From: an uncultured Clostridia bacterium
GTDB taxonomy: Bacteria > Bacillota > Clostridia > Oscillospirales > JAAYOS01
Length of the DNA: 45,144 nt
Assembly (NCBI GenBank): GCA_944387575.1
Contig: CALXFK010000103.1
Span: forward strand, 1-45,144
Reading direction: 5' to 3'
Below the pieces are notes generated by a model. That model was not told where the DNA came from. It searched no databases and was given only the letters and a program-made list of their open reading frames with translations. The translations under genes and the position numbers were made by a program. This document shows positions 11,979 through 35,099 of the stretch, in pieces (the stretch's first letter is position 1; each line of letters starts with the position of its first letter).

Positions 11979-12029
11979 TTGCATTCTGTGCCGTATGATG
12001 GTATAATAACCGAACGGCGGTTATTATAC
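11979..12029 (+). promoter_or_regulatory. coaW promoter with a 12-bp inverted repeat covering -10 and start site
   Basis: TTGCAT (11979-11984), 17-base spacer, TATAAT (12002-12007). The -10 is inside the left arm of a perfect inverted repeat, GTATAATAACCG (12001-12012) and CGGTTATTATAC (12018-12029), so the start site near 12014 lies in its loop. It could be a repressor operator; alternatively the same hairpin, followed by TTTAATT, may end the ldh transcript. Confidence 0.65.
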
Positions 12030-12039
12030 TTTAATTCAA

Positions 12040-12100
12040 GCCGTTTTTCTCGTCCCTTACGGGACAACCGAAAAACATGGCAATTATGCCGTTCCGGCAT
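12040..12100 (+). promoter_or_regulatory. Structured 5' leader of coaW (two hairpins)
   Basis: Hairpin A spans 12040-12081: GCC and GTTTTTC pair with GAAAAAC and GGC, with an inner GTCCC-TTAC-GGGAC stem. Hairpin B is ATGCCG-TTC-CGGCAT (12086-12100). Together they fill the roughly 110-nt untranslated leader before the GTG at 12126. No known riboswitch class was recognised. Confidence 0.45.
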
Positions 12101-12125
12101 AACAGACACAAGGATGTGGTAAACG

Positions 12126-12971
12126 GTGGGAATTGTAGTAGGGATCGATATAGGTGGGAGCACGACCAAAATTATCGGTGTGCGCGACGGTGAGATAATA
12201 ACGCCGCTCATGGTGAGGGCAAACGACCCGATAGCGTCGCTATTTGGTGCGTTCGGAAAGTTTATCGACATCAATTGTTTGACAATTGATAACGTCGAGA
12301 GGGTCGCGATAACCGGCGTCGGTTCATCCGGCGTCACAAGACCGATTTATGGTATCCCGACGGTTCGCGTGGAGGAGTTTCTGGCAAACGGGTTCGGGGG
12401 TCTCTACCTCTCGAAGCTCGACGATGCACTGATAGTGAGTATGGGCACCGGTACCGCGTTCGTCATCGCGGACCGTACCGGCAGCACGAAACACATCGGC
12501 GGAACCGGAATGGGCGGCGGCGCGCTGCTTGGTCTTTCGAGCCTGCTGCTCAACATCAGGAATATTGATGTCCTGATAGACCTCGCCTCGACCGGTAACC
12601 TCGGCAATATCGACCTGACGGTCGGCGATATTTCAAAGGGAGAGATATCAACTCTCAAGCCATATACAACCGCTGCGAACTTCGGAAAGATCAGCGATGT
12701 GGCGGAGAAGAGCGACATTGCGCTTGCGATATTTAACCTTGTATTCCAGACGATAGGTATTATGGCGGTTTTTGCAGCGCGCGGGCTTGGCAGGGATGAG
12801 GCGGTGCTAATAGGCAACCTCACGACTATCCCCTACTGCCGGACGATACTCGCGGGTCTGTATGAGCTGCACGGGTTCCGATTCATTATCCCCGAGCACG
12901 CCGAATACGGTACCGCACTCGGCGCGGCGCTTGCGACTAAGCGCCCGGAGCAGCCGTTCGTGGTAATATAA
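12126..12971 (+). CDS. coaW: Type II pantothenate kinase
   Basis: A 281-residue kinase of the actin-like ASKHA fold that phosphorylates pantothenate, the first step to coenzyme A. The phosphate-1 loop GIDIGGSTTKI is at residues 6-16; VAITGVGSSG, VSMGTGTAFV and HIGGTGMGGGALLGL match the Fumble/CoaW type II family. This form is usually insensitive to CoA feedback and is common in staphylococci and Clostridia. It starts at GTG 12126 with AAGGATG upstream. It has its own promoter and structured leader and is followed by a strong terminator. I did not see a type I or III pantothenate kinase here to compare. Confidence 0.9.
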   Translation: MGIVVGIDIGGSTTKIIGVRDGEIITPLMVRANDPIASLFGAFGKFIDINCLTIDNVERVAITGVGSSGVTRPIYGIPTVRVEEFLANGFGGLYLSKLDDALIVSMGTGTAFVIADRTGSTKHIGGTGMGGGALLGLSSLLLNIRNIDVLIDLASTGNLGNIDLTVGDISKGEISTLKPYTTAANFGKISDVAEKSDIALAIFNLVFQTIGIMAVFAARGLGRDEAVLIGNLTTIPYCRTILAGLYELHGFRFIIPEHAEYGTALGAALATKRPEQPFVVI

Positions 12972-12995
12972 AAATAAAGAGTAAGCAGCGAAGTG

Positions 12996-13028
12996 ACCGG
13001 GAGCGCCTGACAGCGCTCCCGGTTTTAT
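12996..13028 (+). terminator. Rho-independent terminator of coaW
   Basis: Perfect 11-bp GC-rich stem ACCGGGAGCGC (12996-13006) / GCGCTCCCGGT (13013-13023) with a 6-nt loop and TTTTAT tail. Confidence 0.85.
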
Positions 13029-13128
13029 GTGTCCTTTTAAAAAGAAAGTGTAAATGTAACATACTGACCTCCGTTCGCATACGATATGACGAAAGATAAC
13101 CCGATTTCACTGAGAACTGGAGGCATAT

Positions 13129-13407
13129 ATGGACGAACTCCTCATACGCACGATCCTTTCCGGACCGCAAGGTGCAAAAATCATAGGAAACCTTGAAAAG
13201 GTAAAAAGTGTACTCGCAAGCCCGTCCGGGCGTGAGACTCTCAAGCTGCTGTCCGGCGGTGGTGGCGATGCGCTGAAGGCTGCGGCTGCTGCCGCGATGG
13301 AGGGAGACAAAGACGCGGCGTCCCGTATGATAAGCACACTTACGTCAACGCCGGACGGCGCAAAGCTCCTTCAGTCGGTAGTCGCAATGATAGCCTCTGG
13401 AAAGTGA
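13129..13407 (+). CDS. Uncharacterised small helical protein, first of a three-gene operon
   Basis: A 92-residue protein I do not recognise as a named family. It is predicted all-helical, rich in Ala, Gly, Ser and Lys, with GGGGDALKAAAAAAMEGDK in the middle and TPDGAKLLQSVVAMI at the end. It has no signal peptide, transmembrane segment or cysteine. A good Shine-Dalgarno (CTGGAGGC) precedes ATG 13129. Its start MDELLIRTILSGP resembles that of the next protein (MDEKLASLLSSP), and both end in a DG/EGxKLxxS helix, suggesting a diverged pair. Regulation is unclear; a CATACGAT at 13078-13085 is one base off the sigma-E -10 consensus. Confidence 0.75.
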   Translation: MDELLIRTILSGPQGAKIIGNLEKVKSVLASPSGRETLKLLSGGGGDALKAAAAAAMEGDKDAASRMISTLTSTPDGAKLLQSVVAMIASGK

Positions 13408-13414
13408 GGCATTC

Positions 13415-13828
13415 ATGGACGAAAAACTCGCGAGTCTTCTATCCTCCCCTGAGGTGATGGGGCAGGTAATGAACATTGTAAAATCTCTCTCCTCGCAGTC
13501 GGATACCAATTCCGATCCCCCATCCGTGACCGCAAATGCCACCCCGGACACATCCGAGTCTAATCAGGCGTCGCAGGTATCGGAAAAGAAGGCCGGACAG
13601 GAAGCTGGCGAGTACTCGCTGCTTTCAAAAATCGATCCGCGTCTTATTAGTTCGGCGATGAACGCATTTGGGGAGTACTCGAAGGATGACGAGGGCGTAA
13701 AACTGGTAAAGTCGCTCAAAGCACATCTGGGAGGCGAGTACTCCGGGCGCGTGGACCGAGCGGTGGAGGCGCTGAGATTGTCGCGCTCGGTCCGCTCGGC
13801 ACTCCATTCCATAAAGGGAGGCGGTTGA
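13415..13828 (+). CDS. Uncharacterised protein, second of the three-gene operon
   Basis: A 137-residue protein with an N-terminal helix (MDEKLASLLSSPEVMGQVMN), a disordered Ser/Asp/Pro/Ala/Gln linker (about 25-65) and a C-terminal helical, basic domain (about 68-137; KIDPRLISSAMNAF, VKLVKSLKAHL, Arg-rich RAVEALRLSRSVR). It has no membrane segment. It begins 7 bases after the first gene, with GTGAGGC as ribosome site, and its stop abuts the third gene. Basic C-terminus could bind nucleic acid or an acidic partner such as the third protein; this is speculation. Confidence 0.75.
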   Translation: MDEKLASLLSSPEVMGQVMNIVKSLSSQSDTNSDPPSVTANATPDTSESNQASQVSEKKAGQEAGEYSLLSKIDPRLISSAMNAFGEYSKDDEGVKLVKSLKAHLGGEYSGRVDRAVEALRLSRSVRSALHSIKGGG

Positions 13829-14161
13829 ATGTACTCGAGGTATAACCCGGTCCCGAACGAGAGGTTCTATCCGGTGACCGATACTCAGGAACGTGAACCT
13901 GATTTTGAGCTTGAGCCGGTACACAATTCCGCGTCCGAGGAGGCGGAGGAGGTACACGGCGGGATGCCGGCGCGGGAACCCGGGCTTCTTAAACCGGGAC
14001 TTATGAACGGTATACTCGACGCATTCAAGCACGAGGACGGGAAACTGGACTACGGGAGCCTAATAATACTGCTCATAACGATAATGATATTTCTAGAGGA
14101 TGGCAACAGCGAGACTGACCTTCTTATAATAGCGGCGGCACTAATCATAGTTGGATTTTAA
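13829..14161 (+). CDS. Uncharacterised small membrane protein, third of the three-gene operon
   Basis: A 110-residue protein with an N-terminal polar, acidic region (residues 1-67; Pro, Glu-rich, EEAEEVHGG) and a C-terminal hydrophobic hairpin (about 74-110): two short membrane helices separated by an acidic turn, FLEDGNSETDLL. Small Clostridia proteins with a comparable two-helix tail exist, but I cannot name a function. The ATG follows directly after the preceding stop, with GGGAGGCGG in front, so it is translated as part of the operon. A strong terminator follows at 14166. Confidence 0.78.
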   Translation: MYSRYNPVPNERFYPVTDTQEREPDFELEPVHNSASEEAEEVHGGMPAREPGLLKPGLMNGILDAFKHEDGKLDYGSLIILLITIMIFLEDGNSETDLLIIAAALIIVGF

Positions 14162-14165
14162 AAAA

Positions 14166-14193
14166 CAGGGTCGGGGGTGAGCCTCCGACCCTG
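14166..14193 (+). terminator. Terminator of the small-protein operon
   Basis: 12-bp stem CAGGGTCGGGGG / CCTCCGACCCTG (one G-U pair) with loop TGAG, five bases after the stop codon. The T tract is poor. Confidence 0.65.
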
Positions 14194-14221
14194 CTCCGTT
14201 GGCCGCTGAATGAAGAAAACC

Positions 14222-14248
14222 GCCCCGCGGGCATTTTGCTCACGGGGC
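14222..14248 (-). terminator. Terminator of the minus-strand alr/mazF-side operon
   Basis: Stem GCCCCG / CGGGGC with an inner GGGCA / TGCTC stem. On the minus strand it is followed by GGTTTTCTT. It lies 26 bases past the stop codon of the exported coiled-coil protein. Confidence 0.7.
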
Positions 14249-14273
14249 AGGTCGAAAGATATGTCGCTGTTTT

Positions 14274-14939
14274 TTAGCCGACGGTGTACGGACCCTTTAT
14301 CAGGATCACGACATCGGAAGTGCACTTGAAACCGCGTCCGTCCGCCATGCTGACAACATAGTGATGGTTCTGGCGGAGCTGACCGCCGGCGGCGAGATCC
14401 TCGCCGGTGGTGACATCGATAAGTCCGGGGGAACCGCTGGACACGCAGGTCGCGGTGCCTATGCGCCAGAGTATCTCGGTGCCGACCGAGCCGTACACGG
14501 TGGTACCCGACGAGAAGCGCACGGTCTGGAAGAGATTGGAGTTGCCGGTCGCGGGAGAATCGCCCTCACCGGTGTCCTCGCCGCCGGACGAGATGGTGCC
14601 GCCCGACTTGTCGATGACCGCAGCGGCGACCTTTGCAACGAAATCATCGTTTGCAAACCCGGCCGCGTATTGCTCCTCAAATAAACTTATTTTGTCGTCG
14701 ATCGACTGGTTTACCTCGGCGACCTTGGTCTCAAGGGCGGCATCGAACTCTGCTGTCTTCTCCGCGACCGCAGCCGAAATGCTCTCCTGAAGTTCAGGCA
14801 TCAGCTCCTGAATATAACTGAGCGTGACGAGCGGATCATCCCTTCCGCCAAGTTCTGCAGCAATCGCCATATACCCGCCAAAAAGCAGGGTGGCGAGCAG
14901 CACCGAAACAACACCTATAACCCATTTTTTAGGAAGCAT
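14274..14939 (-). CDS. Exported coiled-coil protein with a conserved C-terminal domain, function unknown
   Basis: A 221-residue protein. An N-terminal signal anchor (about 7-27) is followed by a charged helical region (about 45-100, ESISAAVAEKTAEFDAAL and similar), likely coiled coil, then a Gly/Ser/Asp linker. The C-terminal domain (about 135-221) with TTVYGSVGTEILWRIGTATC, DVTTGEDL and a final VVILIKGPYTVG resembles a domain I recall from secreted hypothetical proteins of spore-forming Clostridia, without an assigned function. It lies 16 bases after mazF and is likely co-transcribed. The Cys in the C-terminal domain (GTATC and GFKC) could form a disulfide. Confidence 0.78.
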   Translation of the reverse strand: MLPKKWVIGVVSVLLATLLFGGYMAIAAELGGRDDPLVTLSYIQELMPELQESISAAVAEKTAEFDAALETKVAEVNQSIDDKISLFEEQYAAGFANDDFVAKVAAAVIDKSGGTISSGGEDTGEGDSPATGNSNLFQTVRFSSGTTVYGSVGTEILWRIGTATCVSSGSPGLIDVTTGEDLAAGGQLRQNHHYVVSMADGRGFKCTSDVVILIKGPYTVG

Positions 14940-14955
14940 TTCAACAAACCTCTCT

Positions 14956-15315
14956 TTAATGATTCCCGCCTATGCCAAAGCTGACGGCAATGGCATTGTC
15001 AATACGATTCATGAGAGACCCGTCGACCGTGCCCATCTTCTCGCGCAACCGTCTCTTGTCGATCGTCCGGATCTGCTCGAGCAGGACGACCGAGTCTTTA
15101 GAAAGACCAAAGCTGTTTGCGGCAAGCTCAATATGGGTCGGCAACCTCGCTTTGTTTATCTGCGAGGTTATCGCCGCAGCGATCACGGTCGGACTGTACC
15201 GGTTGCCGACATCATTTTGTACTATCAGCACCGGGCGCATACCGCCTTGCTCGCTGCCAACCACCGGACTGAGGTCGGCGTAATAAATCTCTCCGCGCTT
15301 AACGTTGTTATCCAT
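14956..15315 (-). CDS. mazF: MazF/EndoA-type mRNA interferase without a visible antitoxin
   Basis: A 119-residue endoribonuclease very close to Bacillus EndoA (NdoA): [42 protein letters not shown]. The catalytic pair known from EndoA is present as Arg27 and Thr50. ATG 15315 was chosen by homology. In Bacillus the order is alr-ndoAI-ndoA; here alr is upstream but the 261 bases between (15316-15576) hold no plausible ndoAI/mazE, so the antitoxin is elsewhere or absent. It has its own promoter and a leader with a hairpin and a sequence complementary to its ribosome site. The upstream GGAG is about 12 bases from ATG, longer than usual. Confidence 0.93.
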
Positions 15316-15375
15316 TTGCGTTTCACTCTCCGACAGTCTTGGTCGCAGCCGCCGCATCCGCCGTCATCAGGAGGT

Positions 15376-15406
15376 GACTTATGTAGCAAGCTGCGCAACA
15401 TAAGTC
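15376..15406 (-). promoter_or_regulatory. Inverted repeat in the mazF leader
   Basis: Perfect 9-bp arms GACTTATGT (15376-15384) and ACATAAGTC (15398-15406). Directly beside it the mRNA carries TCACCTCCT (complement of 15369-15377), which matches the 3' end of 16S rRNA and can also pair with the mazF ribosome site GGAGAGTGA (complement of 15323-15331) apart from one bulged A. Confidence 0.45.
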
Positions 15407-15500
15407 TGCCCACTGCCGACGGGGTTTATTCGCGCAGCCTGCGCGGCTGCCCAGACCATACTATTCAAATGGACATACACTGTCGAAACGCCTTACCGCC

Positions 15501-33905: not shown

Positions 33906-35099
33906 CTACTCTGCAAGAAATTCCTCGAGCCTGTCAAGACCTGCCTTTATGTCCTCGATCGAGGTCGCGTACGACCACCTGACGTGATTGGGCGCTCCAA
34001 ATGCGTCGCACGGAACGACTGCAACAAGCCCCTCCTCGAGGAATGCCTCCGCAAAATCGGTGACATTGTTGATCTTGTGCCCGCGTATGGTTCTGCCGAA
34101 GCAGGAGCTCACGTCCATCATAACGTAGAACGCTCCGTCCGGCGGGATTATGGAAATGCCCGGGATCTTCGAGCAGCGGTCGATAAAATAGTTGCGGCGC
34201 TTTGCAAACTCCTTGTACATAACGTCAATGCTCTCCTGCGAGCCGGCGAGTGCCTCGACCGACGCAGCCTGCGCAATGGAGTTCGGACCGGACGCAGCGT
34301 GGCTCTGAACGTTGCCAACCACCTTTGCGATGCGGCTATCAGCCGCGAGGTAGCCTATGCGCCAGCCGGTCATCGAGTACGACTTCGAGACACCGTTTAC
34401 AAGTATGGTGAGCGCCTTGACCTTGTCGCCCAGCGCGGCAAAGCTCGTAAACTTGTTGTCGCCATACACAAGACGGTAGTATATTTCGTCAGAGATCACA
34501 TAGATATCAGCCTCGACGCAGACTGCGGCAAGGCTCTCGAGTTCCTCCTTCGAGTAGACAACTCCGGAGGGATTGGACGGGTTATTGAGAATAAGCGCCT
34601 TGGTTGCAGGCGTTATAGCGGCGCGGAGCGCGTCGGCAGTGAGTTTCCAGCCGGTGGACTCGTCGGTGTACACCACCTTCGGAGTACCTCCGGTCATCTT
34701 TATAAGCTCATAGTAGCTGACCCAATAGGGCGCGGGCAGTATCATCTCGTCGCCCGGGTTGGTTATGGCGTAGAGCGCGTAGTAAAGACTCTGCTTTGCG
34801 CCGCTAGAAATGACTATCTGCGAGGGCTCATAGCTCACGCCGCAGTCCTCAAAGATACGCTTTGCGGCGGCTTTGCGGAGCTCGACAGTCCCGCTTGCAG
34901 GAGTGTAGCGTGTGACGTTGTTATTTATGGCGCTGATAGCAGCTTCCTTTATGTGGTCCGGCGTATTGTAGTCGGTCTCCCCGGCGCCGAAACCGATAAC
35001 ATCGATCCCGTTTGCCTTCATCTCTTTAAAACGGGTGTCTATCGCAAGCGTGGTAGACGCCTGAACTCTCTCCGCAGTAAGTGAAAGTGACTTTGGCAT
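33906..35099 (-). CDS. Pyridoxal phosphate-dependent class I aminotransferase, probably aspartate aminotransferase
   Basis: A 397-residue fold-type I enzyme of the AspB/AspC group. The PLP lysine is Lys239 in NGVSKSYSMTGWRIGYLA; NNPSNPSGVVYSKEEL, ISDEIYYRLVYGD and GAFYVMMD are conserved, and the substrate carboxylate arginine is in HVRWSYA. It likely interconverts aspartate and oxaloacetate, but aromatic or prephenate specificity cannot be excluded. ATG 35099 has CGAGGTGCG in front. The gene has its own promoter in an AT-rich region. Confidence 0.93.
   Translation of the reverse strand: MPKSLSLTAERVQASTTLAIDTRFKEMKANGIDVIGFGAGETDYNTPDHIKEAAISAINNNVTRYTPASGTVELRKAAAKRIFEDCGVSYEPSQIVISSGAKQSLYYALYAITNPGDEMILPAPYWVSYYELIKMTGGTPKVVYTDESTGWKLTADALRAAITPATKALILNNPSNPSGVVYSKEELESLAAVCVEADIYVISDEIYYRLVYGDNKFTSFAALGDKVKALTILVNGVSKSYSMTGWRIGYLAADSRIAKVVGNVQSHAASGPNSIAQAASVEALAGSQESIDVMYKEFAKRRNYFIDRCSKIPGISIIPPDGAFYVMMDVSSCFGRTIRGHKINNVTDFAEAFLEEGLVAVVPCDAFGAPNHVRWSYATSIEDIKAGLDRLEEFLAE

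Follow-up and report, generated by a model that had tools for sequence, protein, structure and literature searches.

A stretch of DNA of 45,144 nucleotides from an uncultured Clostridia bacterium, here called the window, was analyzed, and we found in it an operon of three small genes. Its relatives were present only in spore formers, both in the sample of the order and in that of the class. We read it as probably a late mother-cell operon of sigma-K, whose three small proteins would function together in the envelope of the spore. Since the set is confined to spore formers and the predicted promoter is of a late-sporulation type, the products probably help to build or service the outer layers of the spore.

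Organization of the operon

The three open reading frames lie on the plus strand, are separated by 7 and 0 bases, and each is preceded by a ribosome site of the GGAGG/GAGG type. The features, in window coordinates, are the following.

12995..13024, plus strand: terminator of the upstream pantothenate kinase gene (12-pair stem, T-rich tail, -25.7 kcal/mol, z -5.2)
13059..13060, plus strand: -35 element AC, sigma-K type
13078..13086, plus strand: -10 element CATACGATA (CATANNNTA), 17 bases 3' of AC
13119..13123, plus strand: ribosome site GGAGG of gene 1
13129..13407, plus strand: gene 1, 92 aa
13415..13828, plus strand: gene 2, 137 aa
13829..14161, plus strand: gene 3, 110 aa
14166..14193, no strand assigned: hairpin 3' of the operon (-24.6 kcal/mol, z -3.4; U-run on the minus strand only)

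An earlier note on this DNA had described a three-gene operon with these sizes, spacings and good ribosome sites, and all of this was confirmed. The three frames are taken as coding because homologues of equal order and spacing were found in other genera. The gene upstream encodes a pantothenate kinase of type II (it scores 249.8 bits with NF009842, for which the cut-off is 234), and as the strong terminator at 12995-13024 closes it, the operon starts its own transcript. A terminator had also been proposed to follow the operon. The hairpin at 14166-14193 is real, but with a U-run on the minus strand it belongs mainly to that strand, where it probably terminates the leftward gene at 14274-14939. 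In agreement, the plus-strand terminator scan did not list this hairpin, and no T-run follows it. Rfam gave no match within 12000-15500 of the window. The leftward gene (minus strand) encodes an exported coiled-coil-like protein with a weak match to the YSIRK signal, below cut-off, and is also found near the triad in loci L003 (24-692) and L006.

Distribution and conserved gene order

When genomes of the order were searched with a profile built on the C-terminal domain of gene 2, 136 of 147 were positive. This count is made up of 123 genomes matched by profile A4 and 13 of the remaining 24 matched by the wider profile A5; two of these 13 (G022, locus L289, and G067, locus L298) show no clear triad, and without both the count is 134/147. 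The class sample comprised 215 genomes, 11 of them from the order, and 127 matched. Gene 2 is usually flanked by a small gene before and a hydrophobic-hairpin gene after; the triad is common to the family members, and the same layout was seen in several other families of the class. All three genes were placed by position in 92 of the 110 order loci, the two gaps ranging from -17 to 122 and from -17 to 57 bases, and some of the gene 1 choices being surely wrong (e.g., L102). HMM calls in the same 110 loci gave gene 1 in 54, gene 3 in 87, and both in 40. It had been considered that the order might be conserved nowhere; it proved widely conserved in order and class, which supports the earlier description of a complete small unit.

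Matches thinned out in the phylum sample (45/298 genomes, many of them weak), and in other classes gene 2 was still paired with a gene 3-like hairpin protein. Among the named carriers, for which 183 loci were confirmed and 80 retained, Oscillospiraceae, Ruminococcaceae and Ruminococcus predominated; many of the genomes were metagenome-assembled, and a cultured carrier is Merdimmobilis hominis An559, of the family Oscillospiraceae. In a search of the freely accessible literature, limited to titles and abstract openings, neither a description of the operon nor a proteome of these species was found.

Association with sporulation

SpoIVA was found in 132 of the 147 order genomes. The 15 SpoIVA-negative genomes were checked for SpoIIIAE, which was present in eight of the nine with gene 2 and in none of the six without. 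The gene 2-positive genome negative for both markers, G106, gave two strong sigma-E/K-type matches, and in the six marker-negative genomes such matches reached 75 bits at most. Counting SpoIVA, SpoIIIAE and the sigma-E/K matches of G106, all 136 gene 2-positive genomes of the order (136/136) carry a sporulation marker. Five marker-positive genomes had no gene 2, nor did any of the six marker-negative ones (6/6; Fisher 3.7e-8). These six asporogenous genomes represent three lineages, i.e., the genus g34 (four genomes), G034 and G133. Within g34, the sporulating member G041 has the triad (L288), and the four asporogenous members are without it; sporulation was apparently lost recently within this genus. 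Compared with G041, the genomes G059, G072, G085 and G108 lack SpoIVA, SpoIIIAE, the mother-cell sigma genes and the triad together.

In the class, all 127 positives carry SpoIVA (125) or SpoIIIAE (2); 36 marker-positive genomes had no operon and 52 had neither marker nor operon. The operon is therefore not essential to all spores. The class negatives cluster in families f28, f30, f31 and f172, and since these contain sporulating members that are also without the operon, ancestry contributes to the class-level pattern. What had been a weak hint of sporulation was borne out much more strongly, as presence tracked spore markers in both order and class. Genome G000 contains SpoIVA and, as a sigma-E/sigma-K pair would lead one to expect, two strong matches to the spore sigma-K model; these score 251-254 bits, under the curated cut-off of 298.65.

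A promoter of the sigma-K type

The window promoter (13059-13086) is a full match to AC-N17-CATANNNTA. On both strands of the 45 kb, two such matches were found against 0.64 expected, the second of them at 34351-34378 (minus strand). Upstream regions of related operons were then compared, after removal of near-identical or short ones (85 of 101 kept in the order, 65 of 80 in the class). Among the 85 distinct order regions, 40 contained CATANANT, against 4.3 in shuffles. When regions were aligned on CATANANT, AC was found 19 or 18 bases earlier in 30 of 51, for a background of 0.048 per position, and ATA, the sigma-E mark, was not enriched in these aligned order regions.

As controls from the same genomes, we used dpaA, a published sigma-K gene, and spoIVA for sigma-E; dpaA was taken because yabG (PF05582) was found in 0/30 order genomes, all carrying the operon. 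These 30 genomes had been chosen for a -10 motif before their operon, so the rate for the operon is the one from the 85 regions. For dpaA, 18/30 loci were above cut-off, one of the 18 gave no start, and 17 regions were read; for spoIVA, 1/30 loci gave no start. The pattern AC-N16/17-CATA was present in 37/85 operons, 8/17 dpaA and 2/29 spoIVA regions, and the sigma-E-type pattern CATA-N14-16-CATA in 5/85, 0/17 and 11/29, respectively; the shuffle controls used with the two patterns preserved base but not dinucleotide content. In the class, AC-N16/17-CATA was found in 23/65 regions against 3.7 in shuffles of the same base-preserving kind, and some class loci were sigma-E-like, with ATA at -19 in 9/38. 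The AC-N16/17-CATA pattern thus occurs in under half of the loci. The -10 element, together with the spacing of the -35 AC, points to a late mother-cell promoter of the sigma-K type. The sigma-E-like -10 proposed in the earlier note was not upheld: with AC 17 bases before it, the element is dpaA-like and spoIVA-unlike. Sigma-E control was rejected, as the spoIVA -35 in the same genomes differs.

Features of the three proteins

Protein 1 contains a repeated 15-residue helix motif, common to its head and tail (LLSTPQGA / LMSTPEGA in relatives); the observed score was seen in 0/200 shuffles for six of seven sequences and in 25/200 for the seventh. This motif may resemble STI1/ubiquilin motifs. 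Protein 2 is composed of N-terminal helices, a disordered linker and a conserved C-terminal domain, DDxRxxLLxALKPxLxxxRxxxxDxA, and its AlphaFold model, of modest confidence (mean pLDDT 73), shows two N-terminal helices, the linker and a helical C-terminal domain. Comparison of protein 2 with solved folds gave no match (best E 3.8). Protein 3 starts with MYSRY, followed by an acidic flexible front and hydrophobic helices at 75-89 and 96-109 with an acidic turn between them. In the corresponding model, also of modest confidence (pLDDT 66), the front is flexible and a single short helix accompanies the hydrophobic pair; the two hydrophobic helices are 14-15 residues long, short for plain membrane spans. 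A hydrophobic C-terminal stretch was found in gene 3 of 82/92 order loci and Tyr at position 2 in 53/92. Judged from its sequence, protein 3 may be a membrane or coat anchor. Genes 1 and 3 diverge fast.

No Pfam family was matched above the curated cut-off by the window proteins or by 25 members of gene 1, 27 of gene 2 or 24 of gene 3, and no NCBIfam by the window proteins, 27 relatives of gene 2 and 24 of gene 3. The statement that the proteins have no recognised function stood, and membership in well-known families was not found in these scans. The ALF (E 0.0024), YppG and XopAD-type matches were all below cut-off, and when the gene 1 profile was compared with the PDB, its matches to TAL effectors were repeat sums in which no stretch passes alone. 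The weak match of gene 3 to the YppG-like protein PF14179 (E 0.1) had 13.8 bits against a cut-off of 27 and was not repeated in other gene 3 members.

Genes 1 and 2 had been regarded as distant paralogues. Alignment of the two families with hhalign covered 25 columns with a probability of 28%, falling to 3.5% when close relatives alone were used, and it paired the tail copy of the gene 1 motif with the first helix of gene 2. The likeness of a short helix was thus retained and full paralogy was rejected. The D/EGxKL helix said to be common to both does not hold, since its G is not conserved in the gene 2 family; this likeness is an accident of the window genome.

Proposed role and alternative explanations

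In the mechanism that we propose, the RNA polymerase with sigma-K would transcribe the operon in the mother cell, late, as the coat is finished, and the transcript would yield three small proteins in fixed order, working as one unit. Protein 3 would be held by its C-terminal hydrophobic hairpin, either in the outer membrane of the forespore or in the basal coat, and would leave exposed the flexible, acidic front that begins with MYSRY. Proteins 1 and 2, predicted to be soluble and helical and to have a short helix motif in common, might bind protein 3 or shield its hydrophobic tail, and might tether further envelope proteins; the main contact surface is likely to be the conserved LLxALKPxL domain of protein 2. 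We judge it fairly likely that the three form a complex located either at the basal coat or at the outer membrane of the forespore. Relatives of the operon in other classes adjoin Mn-catalase-like genes, which we count for the spore-envelope reading; the coat catalases of C. difficile are sigma-K genes (PMC3789822). A bolder version of this proposal, possible though doubtful, would see here an unnamed core late-sporulation machine of the Clostridia: a sigma-K operon older than the class and present in nearly all sporulating members of the order, where yabG was not found, in which the two helical proteins would chaperone and tether the hairpin anchor at the outer forespore membrane, coupled to SleB in several families and so linking coat building to later cortex breakdown.

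The chief alternative, raised by the adjacency of sleB, is that the products retain, stabilise or position SleB until the spore germinates, in the manner of YpeB in bacilli. The gene sleB came next, on the same strand and never reversed, in 20 of 101 class loci from six families (f144 with 12, f179 with 4, and f147, f150, f185 and f194), and in L138 and L139 the related genes likewise have a SleB-type gene on their upstream side. YpeB stabilises SleB by protein contact (PMC8745062) and the cortex-lytic SleC of C. difficile is made under sigma-K (PMC3789822). Nevertheless, no order locus had sleB in its fetched flanks, and 81/101 class loci were likewise without it. Where it is present, its distance from gene 3 varies from about 15 to 670 bases, and nothing suggests that the two are transcribed together. 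The forespore is where bacilli make SleB, which also counts against a helper of SleB. We consider this role unlikely.

The late mother-cell promoter, the fast divergence of genes 1 and 3, usual for coat proteins, and the shortness of the hydrophobic helices would also suit a minor structural component, located in the outer coat or exosporium, that makes no membrane contact and whose hydrophobic tail packs in the coat. We hold this to be quite unlikely, for the strict three-gene order and the conserved gene 2 domain argue for a defined assembly and not for bulk coat. A role in general physiology, with the link to sporulation due to shared ancestry, would fit the clustering of class negatives in families whose sporulating members are also without the operon, and is very improbable given that the order shows three independent cases of loss together with asporogeny, one of them inside a genus, and given a promoter resembling that of dpaA and not that of spoIVA.

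Comparison with known sporulation genes

The spore-envelope reading places the triad near known small-coat-protein operons of sigma-K, which are likewise short, have a late mother-cell sigma-K promoter and act in the spore envelope (PMC3789822); the triad differs from them in having no Mn catalase or CotJ/CotF protein and no Pfam family in common. The cotJA-cotJB-cotJC genes of B. subtilis are also a three-gene mother-cell operon that affects the coat. However, they are controlled by sigma-E according to a title cited there, are not always together, and encode proteins different from those of the triad (PMC8745062). As for sleB-ypeB, sleB adjoins the triad in the six families named above and is not adjacent in the order, and no sequence relation between the triad and YpeB was seen in Pfam scans. 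Like the triad, yabG is a conserved late mother-cell gene, yet it is missing from the 30 operon-carrying order genomes searched. Within the sporulation programme, conservation is described as lowest for the sigma-K, or spore-surface, part, and, apart from four co-opted vegetative genes, sigma-K gave one sporulation-signature gene, yabG (PMC10681294). We report here an operon of the sigma-K type that has been retained in most of an order of gut Clostridia, where that gene was found in none of the 30 genomes searched, and that reaches other classes. It could serve as a sporulation marker for uncultured gut bacteria and offers a testable entry into how the little-studied spores of such bacteria are built and opened.

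Neighboring genes

The commonest upstream neighbor, in 71/211 loci, was a divergent gene for a YfcE-like metallophosphoesterase (Metallophos_2; e.g., L019, 2242-2706). The window differs in this respect, its neighbors being the kinase and the leftward exported protein, not a metallophosphoesterase or sleB. In 19 order loci, a convergent gene 3' of the triad encodes an exported protein of ~250 aa (TPxTVQxVIxxLxRPxSY) with no Pfam match, for example at 445-1197 in L019 and 324-1124 in L016. A SleB-type gene stands beside the gene 2-gene 3 pair in L138, L139, L170, L175 and L309 and in 17 further class loci, spanning several families and another class; in L138 and L139 it is upstream. A sigma-G promoter before sleB was sought by eye, and nothing clear was seen. 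In L127, L128 and L130 the gene 2-gene 3 pair adjoins a Mn-catalase/ferritin-like gene of the coat type. In other classes (L134, L137, L142, L144 and L146), arrays of gene 2-like 'KPYLS' paralogues were observed with Nal1/trypsin-like and YbaB-family genes, and in several other families (L131-L133, L141, L145 and L136) gene 2-like proteins are encoded directly 3' of a subtilase gene.
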